Below, in pieces: positions 3,282-16,318 of a stretch of DNA of 20,330 nt. Location of the stretch: the IMG/VR virus record IMGVR_UViG_3300010150_003059, positions 1 through 20,330 of that record. One strand, 5' to 3'. This DNA comes from a virus. The translations under genes and the position numbers were made by a program. The notes beneath the pieces are model-generated. The model was not told the origin of the DNA, did not search any database, and was given only the letters and a program-made list of their open reading frames with translations. Within the stretch, counting starts at the first letter, position 1. The number at the start of each line of letters is the position of its first letter.

Positions 3282-3872
3282 ATGGCAAACAAAAAAGAAA
3301 ACAGACACTACGTCAACAACAAAGAATTTCTGGCAGCGATGACGGAGTATCGTGAAGAACGATTGGCTGCGGAAGAAGCTGGCGAACCCAAACCGAGGGT
3401 GTCGAATTATATTGGTGAGTGTTTTGTTAAGATCGCCAATCACTTGGCGTACAAGTCTAATTTTGTAAACTATACTTTCCGAGAGGAAATGATTCTCGAC
3501 GGCATCGAAAACTGTATTACCTATATCAATAACTTTGATCCCGCTAAATCCAAGAATCCCTTTGCATACTTCACTCAGATTACCTACTATGCTTTCTTGC
3601 GTAGGATTCAGAAAGAAAAGAAACAGATCGATACGAAGAACAAGTATATTCAGAGTCTTGATCTTCACGCCATGATGGATGAACTTGGCGGAGATAGTGG
3701 TTCCAATGAATTTCTTGAGTACATGAAGAGACAGATTGAAGAGTCTGATAAGGCAAATGAGAAGTTTGCGGAGACCGCAAAGAGTCAACCAAAACGTAGA
3801 CCAAAGTACTTCAATGACAAGGAAGCAATGGACTTAGCCAAAGAGAAAATTGAAGCACTAAAAGAGTCTTGA
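3282..3872 (+). CDS. 55: Late-transcription sigma factor gp55
   Basis: gp55 is the T4 sigma-family protein that directs host RNA polymerase to TATAAATA late promoters. This 196-residue product matches T4 gp55 (185 residues) in YVNNKEFLAAM (T4 YVNNKELLQAI), FVNYTFREEMILDGIENC (T4 WKQEMIADGIEAS), NNFDPAKSKNPFAYFTQITYYAFLRRIQKEKKQI (T4 [34 protein letters not shown]). These form the sigma-2-like core for polymerase binding and -10 recognition. T4 gp55 ends in a clamp-binding peptide (SLDFLYE). The C-terminus here (DKEAMDLAKEKIEALKES) shows no clear equivalent. The start at 3282 follows an AGGAATTTAATT leader. Its TGA stop lies within the -35 box of the next promoter. Confidence 0.95.
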   Translation: MANKKENRHYVNNKEFLAAMTEYREERLAAEEAGEPKPRVSNYIGECFVKIANHLAYKSNFVNYTFREEMILDGIENCITYINNFDPAKSKNPFAYFTQITYYAFLRRIQKEKKQIDTKNKYIQSLDLHAMMDELGGDSGSNEFLEYMKRQIEESDKANEKFAETAKSQPKRRPKYFNDKEAMDLAKEKIEALKES

Positions 3873-11864: not shown

Positions 11865-11929
11865 ATTGATTTATAAGGGAATCTTTTTTCGGCTGGCCCC
11901 TTGACTTCTGCTTCAATAGCTGTCATAAT
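11865..11929 (+). promoter_or_regulatory. Promoter region of the VWA/AAA+ operon
   Basis: TTGACT (11901-11906), a 17-bp spacer and CATAAT (11924-11929) form a strong sigma70-type promoter. Upstream lie AAGGG (11875-11879) and, overlapping the -35 box, CCCTT (11898-11902), an inverted pair. The 21 nt at 11894-11914 recur with one mismatch at 14299-14319 before the AAA+ gene, and ATTGATTT...AAGGGAA (11865-11881) recurs at 14260-14276. The start of the transcript, about 11936, excludes the upstream GTG at 11932 as start of the VWA gene. Confidence 0.8.
11894..11914 (+). repeat. 21-nt promoter element, copy 1
   Basis: GGCCCCTTGACTT lies at the centre of a 21-nt element that includes the -35 box. 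It matches copy 2 (14299-14319) at 20 of 21 positions, the one difference being C/T at 11908. The element is unrelated to coding sequence, so the conservation points to promoter duplication or a shared regulator site. Confidence 0.8.
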
Positions 11930-11940
11930 GGGTGTTCATT

Positions 11941-11951
11941 GAGAGTGAGAG
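11941..11951 (+). promoter_or_regulatory. GAGAGTGAGAG leader / ribosome site of the VWA gene
   Basis: GAGAGTGAGAG ends 4 nt before the ATG at 11956 and is the only purine-rich tract that can act as ribosome site. All 11 nt are the reverse complement of part of the terminator loop at 15863-15879. The second gene of the operon has a similar tract at 14357-14368. Confidence 0.65.
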
Positions 11952-11955
11952 TTCT

Positions 11956-14256
11956 ATGAATATTGAGTCAAAGTCCTACCTCGCCAAACTTCTGGCTACT
12001 GAAGACATTGCAATCGAACATGCTAATGTTCCTACCGCCGCGTTTGATCTAAAGGCGCGCAAAATTATCCTGCCAAACTGGAAGGATATGCCCGACTTTC
12101 TTTATGATCTTCTGATCGGCCACGAAGTTGGTCACGGTTTGGTGACCCCGCCAGAAGGTTGGCACGATGCAGTGTGTTCTAAGGGTGCGGGTTTCAAATC
12201 CTTTCTTAATGTTATCGAAGACGCTCGTAACGAACGACTAGTCAAGCAACGATATCCAGGCCTTGTCAAATCATTCTACAAGGCTTACCGATACCTGTTT
12301 GAAAAAGATTTCTTTGGTGTTGGCGATACCGATGTCAACACTCTGTCATTTATTGACCGCATCAATCTTCACTACAAAATTGGTTCATTCCTCAATGTTC
12401 AGTTTTCTGATACCGAACGCGAAACACTCGCTCGTATCGATGTCGCTGAAGAGTGGGATGATGTAGTTGATATCGCCACCGACATTTACGATGGCGCCCT
12501 TGAAGAAATGGAAGATCAACAACCAGAAAATCAGTCCGCTCCTGCCAATGGCGAAGATGATAGTGAAGAGACTGAAGGACAAGGTTCTTCAACCGAGTTG
12601 TCCGATGATGCTGAAGACACCGATGACCCCACCGAAGGCGAAGGTCAGTCGGGTGATGCTGATGGCGAAGAGTCTGATGATGAGTCTGCGCCATCCGGTG
12701 CCGCCGATGCTGAACAATCTGATGAAGAGTCTGATGACAGTGAGAGTGGCGAGGCGTCTGCCGAGAGTGGCACCCCGACCCAATCCAGCGAAGAGTCTGT
12801 CACTGAACCTATGTCCGATACCGATCAAAGTTTCCGACAGAATGAAGGTCGCCTTCTAGATGATGGTTCTGAGTCAGTGTTCACTGCTTACGTTCCCAAG
12901 TTTATCAGTCGCGCTCACAATGTGTTGCCTTCCTCAGAGACTTGGAATTTTGAGTGGAAGTTGTCTCAAAATTATTATGAACCAGTTGACTCTAGTAATA
13001 TCAAAACATATCAAAAAGTTCTGGTAGATACCTTCCGCAGTAAAAACAAATCTGCCATCAATCAATTAGTGATGCAGTTTGAGATGAAACGCAAGGCGTC
13101 AGAGTTACGCAAGGCTCAGGTCAACAACACTGGTAAACTCAACGAAGATAAGTTGTGGGCCTACAAGTTGACCGAAGATTTGTTTTTGTCAAACACTATC
13201 ATGCCGTCTGGTCAAAATCATGGCATGTTTATGATTATTGATTTCTCTGGTTCAATGGCACAACATATGGCGGGTACGCTTGAACAGTTGTTAATTCAAG
13301 TTGCCTTCTGCAAACAGGTTGGTATTCCGTTTGATGTTTACGGTTTCAGTTCGCAAATGCCTAACAAAGATGGTATTAGACAATCCGACAATGAGAACGA
13401 AGTTTCTTTGTGCAGTGGTTCCGGTCTTGTTCAGTTGATTACTTCAGAGTCTTCACCTGCTCAGTACAAAAAAGAATTTGAAAACTTGTTGATGTTCGCT
13501 GACTGTTGGTCTGCCTACACTGCTCGACGTTGGAGAGGCGCCGAGTCCAAATACTACATTTCTCCATATGATATGCCAAGGCATATGCAGTTGGGTTCTA
13601 CTCCGCTTGCTAGTGCAATGATGATTGCAATCGATGTGGCAAAAGAATTCAAAGACCGCAACCGCATTGAAGTAATGAACACCATTGTTCTTTCCGATGG
13701 TGGTAACACCGACGAGTATGAAATTTTTGCCGATGCGAATGATGATTCATATTGGTCTGAACACAAAAGTGTTAATGCCACCAAACTGATTCTAAAACGT
13801 GGCACTACTTCTGTCATGGTTCGACATCCCAAGTCAGTCTATCGCAATCAGTATCGTTTGGGCCGAGAGATTAGTCTTCTCGCTGGTATTGCTATGTTTA
13901 GAAAGATCACTGGTTCGCGCATGGTAAACTTCTGGATTTGTTCAAAGAAAAAATCTGAAGTCAAGAATGCTTGGAATTGGGTGACCTTAAGCGAATACAC
14001 TTGGGCAGAACCACAAGAGTTCTCTGCCCCATACAAGTCTCATTGGATGAAGAAAGATTACATGGCAGTTGACAGTGCATGGGGTTACGATCAGACTTTC
14101 CTAATCAAAGGCGGTGCTGACCTTGAAATTGATGACGCTCAATTGGATATCAAGTCTGACAAAAAGTCCGATGTACTGCGCGGATTCCGCCAGTTTCAGT
14201 CTAAAAAGTCGAATTCCCGACATTTCATTAACCGATTCGTTGACATGGTTGCCTAA
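11956..14256 (+). CDS. CobT-like VWA protein with N-terminal HExxH metallopeptidase
   Basis: A 766-residue three-part protein. Residues 1-180 hold a metallopeptidase-like domain: HEVGH (56-60) and, 28 residues on, NVIEDARNER (E88 a likely third ligand). Residues about 180-295 are a low-complexity linker of Glu, Asp and Ser. The C-terminal part is a von Willebrand A domain with a full metal-ion-dependent adhesion site: DFSGS (429-433), T549 (GSTPLAS) and D581 (LSDGG). In T4-like cyanophages the pair with the next gene is annotated CobT/CobS, after cobaltochelatase, but MoxR/VWA pairs mostly remodel or mature other proteins. The peptidase fits protein maturation better than cobalamin synthesis. 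ATG 11956 is preferred over GTG 11932, which lies at the promoter. Arg codons are mostly CGT/CGC, unlike the AGA-rich genes at 5573-6957. Confidence 0.85.
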   Translation: MNIESKSYLAKLLATEDIAIEHANVPTAAFDLKARKIILPNWKDMPDFLYDLLIGHEVGHGLVTPPEGWHDAVCSKGAGFKSFLNVIEDARNERLVKQRYPGLVKSFYKAYRYLFEKDFFGVGDTDVNTLSFIDRINLHYKIGSFLNVQFSDTERETLARIDVAEEWDDVVDIATDIYDGALEEMEDQQPENQSAPANGEDDSEETEGQGSSTELSDDAEDTDDPTEGEGQSGDADGEESDDESAPSGAADAEQSDEESDDSESGEASAESGTPTQSSEESVTEPMSDTDQSFRQNEGRLLDDGSESVFTAYVPKFISRAHNVLPSSETWNFEWKLSQNYYEPVDSSNIKTYQKVLVDTFRSKNKSAINQLVMQFEMKRKASELRKAQVNNTGKLNEDKLWAYKLTEDLFLSNTIMPSGQNHGMFMIIDFSGSMAQHMAGTLEQLLIQVAFCKQVGIPFDVYGFSSQMPNKDGIRQSDNENEVSLCSGSGLVQLITSESSPAQYKKEFENLLMFADCWSAYTARRWRGAESKYYISPYDMPRHMQLGSTPLASAMMIAIDVAKEFKDRNRIEVMNTIVLSDGGNTDEYEIFADANDDSYWSEHKSVNATKLILKRGTTSVMVRHPKSVYRNQYRLGREISLLAGIAMFRKITGSRMVNFWICSKKKSEVKNAWNWVTLSEYTWAEPQEFSAPYKSHWMKKDYMAVDSAWGYDQTFLIKGGADLEIDDAQLDIKSDKKSDVLRGFRQFQSKKSNSRHFINRFVDMVA

Positions 14257-14259
14257 GTG

Positions 14260-14334
14260 ATTGATTTTAAAGGGAAAGAAAATCAAATTATTTCGCTTTG
14301 GCCCCTTGACTTTTGCTTCGGTATGTAGTAAGCT
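14260..14334 (+). promoter_or_regulatory. Putative second promoter, before the AAA+ gene
   Basis: The 118-nt gap repeats the elements found before the VWA gene: ATTGATTT...AAGGGAA (14260-14276), then the 21-nt element containing TTGACT (14306-14311). At 17 bp spacing the -10 is TAAGCT (14329-14334), weaker than copy 1. TATAGT (14337-14342) is too far. The AAGGG/CCCTT inverted pair is kept (14270-14274, 14303-14307). Confidence 0.6.
14299..14319 (+). repeat. 21-nt promoter element, copy 2
   Basis: This is the second copy of the element at 11894-11914, with one mismatch, again spanning the -35 box TTGACT. Its presence upstream of both large genes of the operon suggests common regulation. Confidence 0.8.
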
Positions 14335-14356
14335 AGTATAGTAAAGTGAGAAATTC

Positions 14357-14368
14357 AGAGAGAGTGAG
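14357..14368 (+). promoter_or_regulatory. AGAGAGAGTGAG leader / ribosome site of the AAA+ gene
   Basis: AGAGAGAGTGAG ends 6 nt before the ATG at 14375 and is the likely ribosome site. It shares GAGAGTGAG with the VWA leader and is the reverse complement, over 12 nt, of part of the terminator loop at 15863-15879. Confidence 0.65.
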
Positions 14369-14374
14369 TATATT

Positions 14375-15559
14375 ATGAGTATTAAACAGAAAGATCAGTT
14401 GTTGTCCGCCCTTGCCGATTCTAATAATCAGTCGGGTATCTTCTCAAAATCAGAGGTTATGGATATTGCCCGTGAGGCGGGTCTCAAAAATCCGATGTGG
14501 TTTTTCAAAGAGGCCAAGGTTGGTCGCAATCAATTCAACCCCATGATGGTCGGACAAGTTGTGACTATGCCGACACCCGCTGAACCAATTGCAGTAATTC
14601 AATCGCAACCAGAACCAGTTGCAGTTGCCGCTGCAAAGGTTCTCAGTCAGGATAAACTTGTTGTGGAAATCGAAAACTTAGTTCCCGCCAAAGATTCAAC
14701 ATATGTTCCTTTCGGTTTCTATCGTGACCTAGTGAACATTGTCAAGTCTGGCATGTTCTACCCTACATTCATTTGCGGTTTGTCCGGTAACGGTAAAACC
14801 ATGATGGTCGAACAGGTTTGCGCCAAACTCAAACGTGAAGCAATCCGTGTCAATATCTCAATCGAAACCGATGAAGATGATCTGATTGGTGGTAACACGC
14901 TTGTCGATGGTAACGTAGTCTATCGTGAAGGTCCGGTACTGACCGCCATGAAACGTGGCGCAGTGTTGATCCTTGATGAGATTGACCGTGGATCAAACAA
15001 GTTGATGTGTCTACAGGCAATCCTTGAAGGCAAACCCTACTTCAACAAAAAGACTGGCGAAGTTATTACTCCCGCCTCTGGTTTCAATGTGATCGCTACT
15101 GCGAACACCAAGGGCCGTGGTTCCGATGACGGTAAGTTCATGGGTGCCCAAGTTCTTGATGAGGCATTCCTCGAGCGATTTGCAATCACAGTCGAACAAG
15201 AATACCCTTCTGCCGCTCAAGAGAAAAAGATTGTTCTCAACAAAATGGCAGTTGCCGATTGCGTTGATGATGAGTTTGCCGACAAGTTGGTACTCTGGGC
15301 TGATGTGATCCGAAAGACTTTCTATGAAGGTGGCATCGATGAGTTGGTTTCGACTCGCCGTCTGGAACACATTGTCAAGGCGTTCGCCATGTTCAAAGAC
15401 CGACTCAAGGCGATTCAGTTGTGCGTCAATCGATTCGACACTGACACCAAGTCTGCCTTCATTGACCTGTACACCAAGGTTGATGCTGGTGTCGATCTCA
15501 CTGAGACCTCAGAAGAAGATATCGCCGATGAAAAAGAGGCAGATGAATATGACATCTAA
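14375..15559 (+). CDS. cobS: CobS/MoxR-family AAA+ ATPase
   Basis: A 394-residue ATPase. Residues 1-115 form a phage-specific N-terminal part, with a small helical domain (SKSEVMDIAREAGLKNPMWFFKEAK) and a Pro/Ala-rich linker. The AAA+ core has Walker A GLSGNGKT (135-142), the MoxR-type segment DEDDLIGGNTLVDGNVVYREGPVLTAMKRG, Walker B LILDEIDRG (D201, E202), sensor-1 FNVIATANTKGRG and the arginine-finger region LDEAFLERFAI. The C-terminus is acidic. T4-like cyanophage homologues are called CobS, though cobaltochelatase activity has not been read from this sequence. With the VWA/peptidase protein upstream it forms a MoxR-VWA pair. It has its own promoter copy and leader. Confidence 0.9.
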   Translation: MSIKQKDQLLSALADSNNQSGIFSKSEVMDIAREAGLKNPMWFFKEAKVGRNQFNPMMVGQVVTMPTPAEPIAVIQSQPEPVAVAAAKVLSQDKLVVEIENLVPAKDSTYVPFGFYRDLVNIVKSGMFYPTFICGLSGNGKTMMVEQVCAKLKREAIRVNISIETDEDDLIGGNTLVDGNVVYREGPVLTAMKRGAVLILDEIDRGSNKLMCLQAILEGKPYFNKKTGEVITPASGFNVIATANTKGRGSDDGKFMGAQVLDEAFLERFAITVEQEYPSAAQEKKIVLNKMAVADCVDDEFADKLVLWADVIRKTFYEGGIDELVSTRRLEHIVKAFAMFKDRLKAIQLCVNRFDTDTKSAFIDLYTKVDAGVDLTETSEEDIADEKEADEYDI

Positions 15560-15827
15560 TATCGATTATCGATACAACGAGTTTGCGTTGATTAGTGAGT
15601 TGGAAGATTATGTTAATTCTACATATACCGAACACTACTCCAAGAACAAGTTTCAGGCCACTGAGTTTATCATTGACGGTGGCCACGGTGAAGGTTTCTG
15701 CCTCGGTAATATCCTAAAGTACACTCAACGATATGGTAATAAGGAAGGCAAGAACCGTAAAGACCTCTTGAAAGTACTTCATTATGCCCTAATTGCACTG
15801 CATGTTCACGATTTAGAACATCAGTAA
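15549..15827 (+). CDS. DUF3310-like protein
   Basis: A 92-residue protein overlapping the AAA+ stop by 11 nt. The start at 15549 lies 9 nt after AAGAGG; ATG 15543 in the same frame (94 residues) is possible but only 3 nt from that site. HYSKNKFQATEFIIDGGHGEGFCLGNILKYTQRYGNKEGKNRKDLLKVLHYALIAL (residues about 25-82) follows the DUF3310 pattern: an H-Y start, a G-x-G-F-x-L-G-N-x-x-K-Y core and a D-L-x-K-x-x-x-Y helix. DUF3310 is an all-helical phage family, sometimes called nucleotide kinase, of uncertain function. It is the last gene of the VWA/AAA+ operon. Confidence 0.78.
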   Translation: MTSNIDYRYNEFALISELEDYVNSTYTEHYSKNKFQATEFIIDGGHGEGFCLGNILKYTQRYGNKEGKNRKDLLKVLHYALIALHVHDLEHQ

Positions 15828-15846
15828 AGGTTCGCCCTTGCGGCGG

Positions 15847-15904
15847 CCGAGAACCGACAGGCCTCTCTCACTCTCTCTCAACTTGTCGGTTCTCGGTTTT
15901 TTTT
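15847..15904 (+). terminator. Strong terminator with CT-repeat loop
   Basis: A perfect 13-bp stem (CCGAGAACCGACA at 15847-15859 with TGTCGGTTCTCGG at 15884-15896) is followed by eight T. The loop is 24 nt, unusually long, and contains CTCTCTCACTCTCTCTC (15863-15879), complementary to the leaders of the VWA and AAA+ genes. Upstream GGTTC (15829-15833) could pair with GAACC (15851-15855) and break the terminator stem, so an alternative fold exists. The element ends the operon 20 nt after its last stop codon. Confidence 0.92.
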
Positions 15905-15906
15905 AT

Positions 15907-15914
15907 TATAAATA
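15907..15914 (+). promoter_or_regulatory. T4-type late promoter (TATAAATA)
   Basis: TATAAATAG, as at 202, begins 3 nt after the T tract of the terminator and 44 nt before the start at 15951. The terminator and late promoter together insulate this gene from the early operon. The transcript should begin near the GAGAGAGA tract (about 15916-15922). Confidence 0.83.
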
Positions 15915-15950
15915 GAGAGAGAAATATCAACCCCCGTAATGGAGAGAATA

Positions 15951-16286
15951 ATGGCTTATAGAAAAGTTACAACGTTTACAAGAACCGATGCAGAATCAGA
16001 GTGGCCTTTTTGGGCAACGGAATTGCTGGGTACTGACTACGACGCTCAATCCACTGCTTGGCTGGATTGGATGACCGGAAGAACGGATGTCTCAATGACA
16101 AATGACTTCAGTGATCCTTTGAGTGTTGTGATTAAATTAAACTTTGCGGATGAAGCAGCATACATTGCTTGGAACACTGCAAGAAGTGATGCTGGACATC
16201 CAGATGATTACTTGGGTAACTCGGAAGTGACCAGTTATTGTACTACAAATAGTATTACAATCGCTCACACTACGGAGTCAGATTAA
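15951..16286 (+). CDS. Small late protein, unknown function (possible virion protein)
   Basis: A 111-residue acidic protein beginning MAYRKVTTFTRTDAE. The ATG at 15939 in the same frame lies before the GGAGAG ribosome site (15941-15946), so 15951 is the better start. Its leader (ggagag, then ATGGCTTA) resembles that of the tail gene at 232. The sequence is rich in Trp, Thr, Ser and Asp (SEWPFWATELLG, STAWLDWMTGR). A segment, DPLSVVIKLNFADEAAYIAWNTARSDAGHP, could be an alpha/beta unit. I recognise no family. The late promoter suggests a virion, assembly or lysis role. Confidence 0.68.
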   Translation: MAYRKVTTFTRTDAESEWPFWATELLGTDYDAQSTAWLDWMTGRTDVSMTNDFSDPLSVVIKLNFADEAAYIAWNTARSDAGHPDDYLGNSEVTSYCTTNSITIAHTTESD

Positions 16287-16289
16287 CCC

Positions 16290-16318
16290 TTGACATTTGA
16301 GTGTCGTTTTGTTATTAT
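16290..16318 (+). promoter_or_regulatory. Sigma70-type promoter for the gp45 operon
   Basis: TTGACA (16290-16295), a 17-bp spacer and TATTAT (16313-16318) precede gp45 by 25 nt. The CCCTTGAC stretch is shared with the promoters at 11901 and 14306. GACA-N6-TGTC (16292-16305) forms a short inverted repeat over the -35 box. Confidence 0.88.

Follow-up and report, generated by a model that had tools for sequence, protein, structure and literature searches.

What does a transcription terminator do when its loop is complementary to the ribosome sites of the operon that it closes? The question is raised by a phage locus at which the original prediction proposed that the loop of a terminator could silence the two large genes upstream of it, which encode a VWA/CobT-like protein and a CobS-like AAA+ ATPase. 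CobS/CobT-like genes are widespread in marine T4-like phages. In the following, the window means the whole stretch of DNA that was analysed, an entire IMG/VR record of 20,330 bases.

Operon layout and related phages

The operon lies on the + strand. It begins with the VWA/CobT-like large protein of 766 aa (11956..14256; phrog_459 'peptidase'), for which a Pfam search of the gene product gave no match and the VWA label stems from the initial sequence reading. The AAA+ ATPase of 394 aa follows (14375..15559; PF07728, phrog_249), and a DUF3310 protein of 92 aa (15549..15827; PF11753) is encoded by the last gene. Behind the operon stands a late gene of 111 aa (15951..16286, + strand), to which profile and phrog comparison assigned no function, and the gp45/gp44/gp62 replication cluster is located 3′ of this gene. 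A gp55-like late sigma factor is also encoded in the window (3282-3872). Elsewhere, the syn9 annotation places gp45 directly behind gp154, and in Pelagibacter phage HTVC008M (L438) a gene annotated as ribosomal protein S21 (91228-91431) occupies the position of the window's DUF3310 gene, directly behind CobS.

Upstream of the VWA gene we noted a candidate sigma-70-like promoter (TTGACT and CATAAT separated by 17 nt; 11901..11929, + strand), which is a consensus match only. It is included in a promoter module, GGCCCCTTGACTTYTGCTTC, that precedes both the VWA and the AAA+ gene; the second copy (CCTTGACTTTTGCTTC; 14304..14325, + strand) was recognized 5′ of the AAA+ gene by repeat comparison. As the promoter-like sequences are placed so close to the VWA start, the VWA 5′UTR is probably about 20 nt long. 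Since the two genes share the upstream module, the AAA+ mRNA would carry its own leader together with the terminator loop. A simple consensus scan of the + strand from 14374 to 16290 detected no promoter-like sites. The shared module is preceded by ATTGATTT...AAGGGAA both in the window (11899-11915 and 14304-14320) and in contig G001 (57170 and 54767), and similar modules with GAGAG-type leaders are found at other early genes, e.g., at G002:14433.

Scans of IMG/VR yielded 402 sequences including the window, and 132 after dereplication. At the operon end, 43 of the 131 rows on the AAA+ tree were assigned a hairpin whose loop is long and pyrimidine-rich; the hairpin-bearing rows form two large clades plus lineage L437, with four changes of state. 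The element occurs in a family of uncultured, mostly marine, T4-like bacterial viruses. The length of the terminator loop varied from 19 to 32 nt in 25 related loci. Six long contigs were scanned, and in most of them this was the sole strong terminator-like hairpin with a long loop near the end of a gene cluster; the automatic scan missed it in G002 and G003, where the hairpin is present in the same or overlapping loci. Loop boundaries were set by RNAfold or by eye and gene starts were projected from protein matches, except that the AAA+ starts of L019, L319, and L436 were moved by hand to an upstream ATG at a time when the loop was already known.

Because their loop-like sequence falls in an apparent coding region, lineages L378-L394 were excluded from the tests. 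Behind the DUF3310 gene of L381, L383, and L387 we observed the 20-mer AACTCTAACTCCTCTCCTCA, which is exactly the terminator loop of L396. It is flanked by a short stem without a T tract and lies within the apparent coding sequence of the next gene (N-S-N-S-S-P-H-E). Close variants of the 20-mer follow the DUF3310 gene in L384 and L394.

The terminator loop and its matches in the window

The terminator hairpin was located by RNAfold at 15845..15898 (+ strand; arms 15845-15861 and 15882-15898), with a T tract extending to about 15905. A stem of 13 bp with a 24-nt loop had been claimed for it; RNAfold instead gives 16 bp and 20 nt, with a folding energy of -36.2 kcal/mol over a 91-nt stretch (z -5.1). 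The apical loop, CCTCTCTCACTCTCTCTCAA (15862..15881, + strand), was delimited as the pairing element by RNAfold and lineage comparison and contains the segment CTCTCTCACTCTCTCTC (15863-15879). Two sites on the + strand are complementary to the loop. The first, GAGAGTGAGAG in the VWA leader (11941..11951; -15 to -5 of the ATG), ends 4 nt upstream of the start codon at 11956, and the other, AGAGAGAGTGAG in the AAA+ leader (14357..14368; -18 to -7 of the ATG), ends 6 nt upstream of that at 14375. On recheck, the letters and coordinates given in the original prediction for the loop and for both leader sites were all correct. An Rfam 15 search with the window and five relatives returned no match above the gathering score.

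Taken by itself, the loop-leader match in the window is suggestive at most. With up to one mismatch allowed, GAGAGTGAGAG has three matches in the window vs. 0.48 expected, and three were reached in 2 of 100 shuffles. Dinucleotide-shuffled loops gave p = 0.09 for the 12-nt run with the AAA+ leader, p = 0.15 for the 11-nt run with the VWA leader, and a joint value of 0.045. The match is barely beyond chance because the loop is CT-rich and the leaders are GA-rich. That both pairings cross the same asymmetric GTGA had been taken to place them beyond GA/CT matching; the pairings are indeed exact, but at a joint p of 0.045 the argument is weaker than it seemed. A ranking of loop pairing over all leaders in the window (25 predicted genes) placed AAA+ first and VWA second. 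As the window alone is suggestive at most, the case depends on the comparison of related phages.

A rewritten stem around a constant loop

In the window and the near lineages L415, L412, L429, and L435, only 6-8 of the 26 arm bases are held in common with the window, while 12-13 of the 13 inner stem pairs form in each of the five. Both sides are altered at 10 of the 13 pair positions, i.e., the changes are compensatory, and 19 loop bases (CTCTCTCACTCTCTCTCAA) are invariant throughout. We read this alignment, with a stem that is rewritten but stays paired around a constant loop, as the mark of an RNA hairpin in which the sequence of the loop is important. The pattern that would have spoken against the original prediction, a kept stem with a loop altered without leader change, was looked for and the reverse was seen: it is the stem that was altered and the loop that was kept.

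Loop and leaders change together in distant lineages

Distant lineages carry other loop sequences, and their VWA and AAA+ leaders have diverged in step, so that loop and leader match over 9-14 nt. The comparison thus bears out the expected covariation: a changed loop is accompanied by matching changes in the leaders. Non-purine letters are included, and the covarying stretches comprise GGTC, GTTAGA, ACTTGT, and GTTGAT. In L323, the loop GACCTCTCTC corresponds to the AAA+ leader GAGAGAGGTC. In L396, TCTAACTCCTC of the loop corresponds to GAGGAGTTAGA of the VWA leader and ACTCCTCTC to GAGAGGAGT of the AAA+ leader, and the L417 loop TTCCTAACTATA has counterparts in both the AAA+ (TATAGTTAGGAA) and VWA (TATAGTTAGGA) leaders. 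Further pairs are the L122 loop CTCCTCACTAT with the VWA leader ATAGTGAGGAG, the L406 loop TCTCCTCACAAGT with the AAA+ leader ACTTGTGAGGAGA, and the L437 loop CTTTCCTCATCAAC with the VWA leader GTTGATGAGGAAAG and the AAA+ leader TGATGAGGAA. Some single lineages are beyond chance on their own (13 nt in L406, 14 nt in L437, 12 and 11 nt in L417; joint p 0.0007-0.002), while the shuffled-loop joint test was not significant in L429, L435, and L423.

Swap tests compared each leader's own loop with swapped loops; their p-values are guides only because the lineages are partly non-independent, and with this reading the AAA+ leaders (n = 25) paired at -18.9 kcal/mol with their own vs. -15.3 kcal/mol with swapped loops (p <= 5e-5), the longest Watson-Crick run being 9.4 vs. 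7.1 nt (p <= 5e-5). For the VWA leaders (n = 23) the run was 8.7 vs. 6.8 nt (p 5e-5) with an energy p of 1e-4, and overall the VWA swap tests gave p <= 6.5e-4. Results were similar for ten dissimilar lineages, with AAA+ runs of 9.7 (own) vs. 6.6 (swapped; p 5e-5) and VWA runs of 9.4 vs. 6.1 (p 5e-5; energy p 5.5e-4). Permutation within clades was significant for the AAA+ energy in both large clades (2/720 and 3/720) and for VWA in clade B; clade A, with four usable lineages, gave no VWA signal (18/24 by energy, 9/24 by run).

In L319, L436, and L253 the hairpin has been relocated by about 1.1 kb downstream, and the loop still matches the AAA+ leader. Pairing with one of the two leaders is weak in several lineages, namely with VWA in L406 (5 nt) and L405 (6 nt) and with AAA+ in L427 (6 nt), and it is 7 nt or less with one leader in L402/L403. 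When whole contigs were ranked by energy, the VWA and AAA+ leaders were 1st and 3rd among 210 in G001, 7th and 3rd among 205 in G003, and 3rd and tied 1st among 57 in G007; in G004 and G008 the VWA leader was not among the best loop partners.

Specificity and position of the pairing

The leaders of gp45 (n = 13), DUF3310 (n = 15), and gp44 (n = 11) gave no signal in the swap test (p = 0.61, 0.84, and 0.37, respectively), and neither did swap tests on the stem arms or on same-strand identity. By these controls, the complementarity is specific to two leaders, those of VWA and AAA+, and within the hairpin it is a property of the loop, not of the arms. Generic GA/CT matching was ruled out by the swap, within-clade, and other-gene controls.

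The median pairing site extends from -16 to -6 relative to the start codon, and 92% of the AAA+/VWA sites overlap -13 to -5, the Shine-Dalgarno region. In L417 and L405, AAA+ pairing is placed upstream of the ribosome site, at -33 to -22. In the AAA+ leader of these two lineages, a short upstream reading frame (ATGAGAAGAGGATATACATTATGA) starts downstream of TATAGTTAGGA, the stretch complementary to the loop, and overlaps the start codon of the AAA+ gene, an arrangement in which translational coupling is possible. We counted 7 G.U pairs vs. 16 A.C mismatches. As G.U pairs are not favored, there is no wobble signature of RNA pairing and this test is uninformative.

The late transcript and other possible partners

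Directly behind the terminator lies a T4-type late promoter, TATAAATA (15907..15914, + strand); of the 24 loci inspected, 22 have TATAAATA or TATAAAAA behind the hairpin. It is followed by GAGAGAGA (15915..15922, + strand), a possible third partner of the loop. This motif had been assigned to the leader of the late gene. It is present, but since the late promoter is immediately upstream it probably represents the presumed 5′ end of the late transcript and not a ribosome site. Late 5′ ends (n = 17) paired with their own loops at -9.9 kcal/mol vs. -8.1 kcal/mol with swapped loops (0/20,000 permutations; run p 9e-4), although the site is only about 30 bases from the loop, so that a functionless local inverted repeat could explain the match. 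An example is L423, with AGAGAGTAAGA vs. TCTTACTCTCT. The late promoter was rejected as a required context, as L437 and L125 keep the loop-leader match without TATAAATA behind the hairpin.

Other early genes were also considered as partners. Those of phrog_5014 and phrog_10415 have TTGAGAGAG-type leaders that pair with the loop; these leaders showed no own-loop specificity, the loops of other phages pairing equally well or better. With these two families lacking own-loop specificity, a genome-wide early regulon was rejected as the main selected function. In L402/L403 and in contigs G004 and G008, there are matches of 10 and 8 nt (10 nt in L402/G004) between the ribosome site of regA (phrog_242, translation repressor) and the 5′ half of the loop (TTCCTATTGA). 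A 12-nt match between the 3′ half of the loop and the leader of the gp44 clamp loader (CTCTCCTCTCAT / ATGAGAGGAGAG) is confined to one lineage (L319, G003:148439).

Discussion

On the evidence of covariation, the hairpin loop and the VWA and AAA+ ribosome sites are a co-evolving RNA element. We favor the explanation, with a probability of roughly two in three, that the terminator loop represses the two main genes of its own operon through RNA pairing at their ribosome sites and is thus autoregulatory. The intrinsic-terminator hairpin at the 3′ end of the VWA/AAA+/DUF3310 operon would expose a 20-nt unpaired loop, and RNA would accumulate, either as the terminated mRNA or as a stable piece released from its 3′ end. 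The loop would then anneal to the VWA and AAA+ leaders of the same molecule (in cis) or of another (in trans), where the duplex would block 30S binding and would probably be exposed to nucleases, and the operon would thereby limit its own expression. In many lineages the neighboring late transcript has a weaker matching site at its 5′ end, and this end may compete for loop binding once late transcription starts. It is a tentative extension of this model, and on balance an unlikely one, that the whole forms an RNA feedback switch whose loop coevolves with both ribosome sites and with the late 5′ end. The operon would be silenced by its finished early transcripts and the loop titrated away as late transcription begins, with no protein needed.

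At the switch to late transcription, a terminated 3′ RNA could also work in trans, as a small RNA turning off numerous early genes that have GAGAG-type leaders. The occurrence of TTGAGAGAG leaders at other early genes (phrog_5014, phrog_10415) and the long lineage-specific matches to gp44 (12 nt in L319/G003) and regA (10 nt in L402/G004) point in this direction; however, the phrog_5014 and phrog_10415 leaders are not specific for their own loop and gp44 as a set has no signal. Such a broad regulon is a doubtful proposition, though compatible with autoregulation, and both may hold. Somewhat less probable still is pairing that is real and non-repressive, the 3′ loop meeting the 5′ end of the mRNA or the late transcript. 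To a similarly low degree of likelihood, its effect would be protection from 5′-end-dependent decay or help in read-through into the late region. The pairing sites are near presumed mRNA 5′ ends (the VWA -10 box is about 12 nt upstream of the site), the site on the late transcript is at its 5′ end instead of a ribosome site, and the AAA+ site of L417/L405 lies upstream of the ribosome site. Yet the 92% of sites in the Shine-Dalgarno region are where pairing should block initiation.

We consider it very unlikely that the motif is a DNA operator for a phage regulator, found at three promoters and inverted before the late promoter. Its sites are near the starts of transcription units and G.U pairs are not preferred, as an operator would have it, but the covarying stretch is confined to the loop without involvement of the arms, compensatory changes have preserved the stem, the leader sites follow the position of the ribosome site, and the match persists in L437 and L125, which have no late promoter there, and after relocation of the hairpin. 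Least credible of all is a coincidence of composition, in which a CT-rich loop fits any purine-rich Shine-Dalgarno leader. This would suit the window (joint p 0.045) and the non-significant L429, L435, and L423; across lineages it is refuted by the swap tests, and the within-clade and other-gene controls and the covarying non-purine letters likewise argue against it.

The proposed repression by the terminator loop resembles known systems in part. In icaR mRNA of Staphylococcus aureus, a pyrimidine motif of the 3′UTR pairs with the mRNA's own Shine-Dalgarno region (PMC3868564), and the pairing obstructs the initiation complex and generates an RNase III substrate. Here, too, a 3′UTR motif is complementary to the Shine-Dalgarno region of what gene order and the terminator suggest to be the same transcript. 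Whereas icaR is a bacterial case with one gene, one site, and a long 3′UTR, the phage motif is the apical loop of the terminator and matches two leaders with seemingly separate promoters, its pairing being deduced from covariation only. In Vibrio cholerae, the sRNAs OppZ and CarZ, which derive by processing from the 3′ ends of operons, repress the operons from which they come (PMC7398697; reviewed in PMC9438474), and the present element likewise sits at the terminator-bearing 3′ end of the operon that it would regulate, with negative feedback as the proposed outcome. RNase E releases OppZ and CarZ, and OppZ is Hfq-dependent. In T4-related phages, the repressor RegA blocks ribosome sites of early mRNAs (PMC3014915); the broad phage group and the type of target are the same, with a protein there and, as proposed, an RNA loop here. 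CfrI of S-PM2, OOP of lambda, and DicF are phage antisense or small RNAs (PMC12197685) that, like the present element, act or may act by pairing; none of those named in the accessible part of that source is described as the loop of a terminator that could pair with leaders within the same operon. Nor did the accessible part of the open-licence literature provide a description of such an element in these phages. By analogy, the element would work like the icaR and OppZ/CarZ systems, and it is not a proven member of either. What sets it apart is that the icaR/OppZ-like principle would operate in the loop of a phage terminator and involve two or three leaders.

To our knowledge, autoregulation by 3′UTR/5′UTR pairing is known from few bacterial genes. 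The covariation across many lineages of T4-like phages points to this principle of self-pairing within a terminator loop, with selection acting over a period in which the stem could be rewritten and loop and leaders could change in concert. Comparing terminator loops with the leaders of their own operons across phages is an approach that can be scaled up, and the pairing is directly testable with reporters. If the RNA feedback switch is true, it would tie the translation of early genes to the firing of the late promoter.
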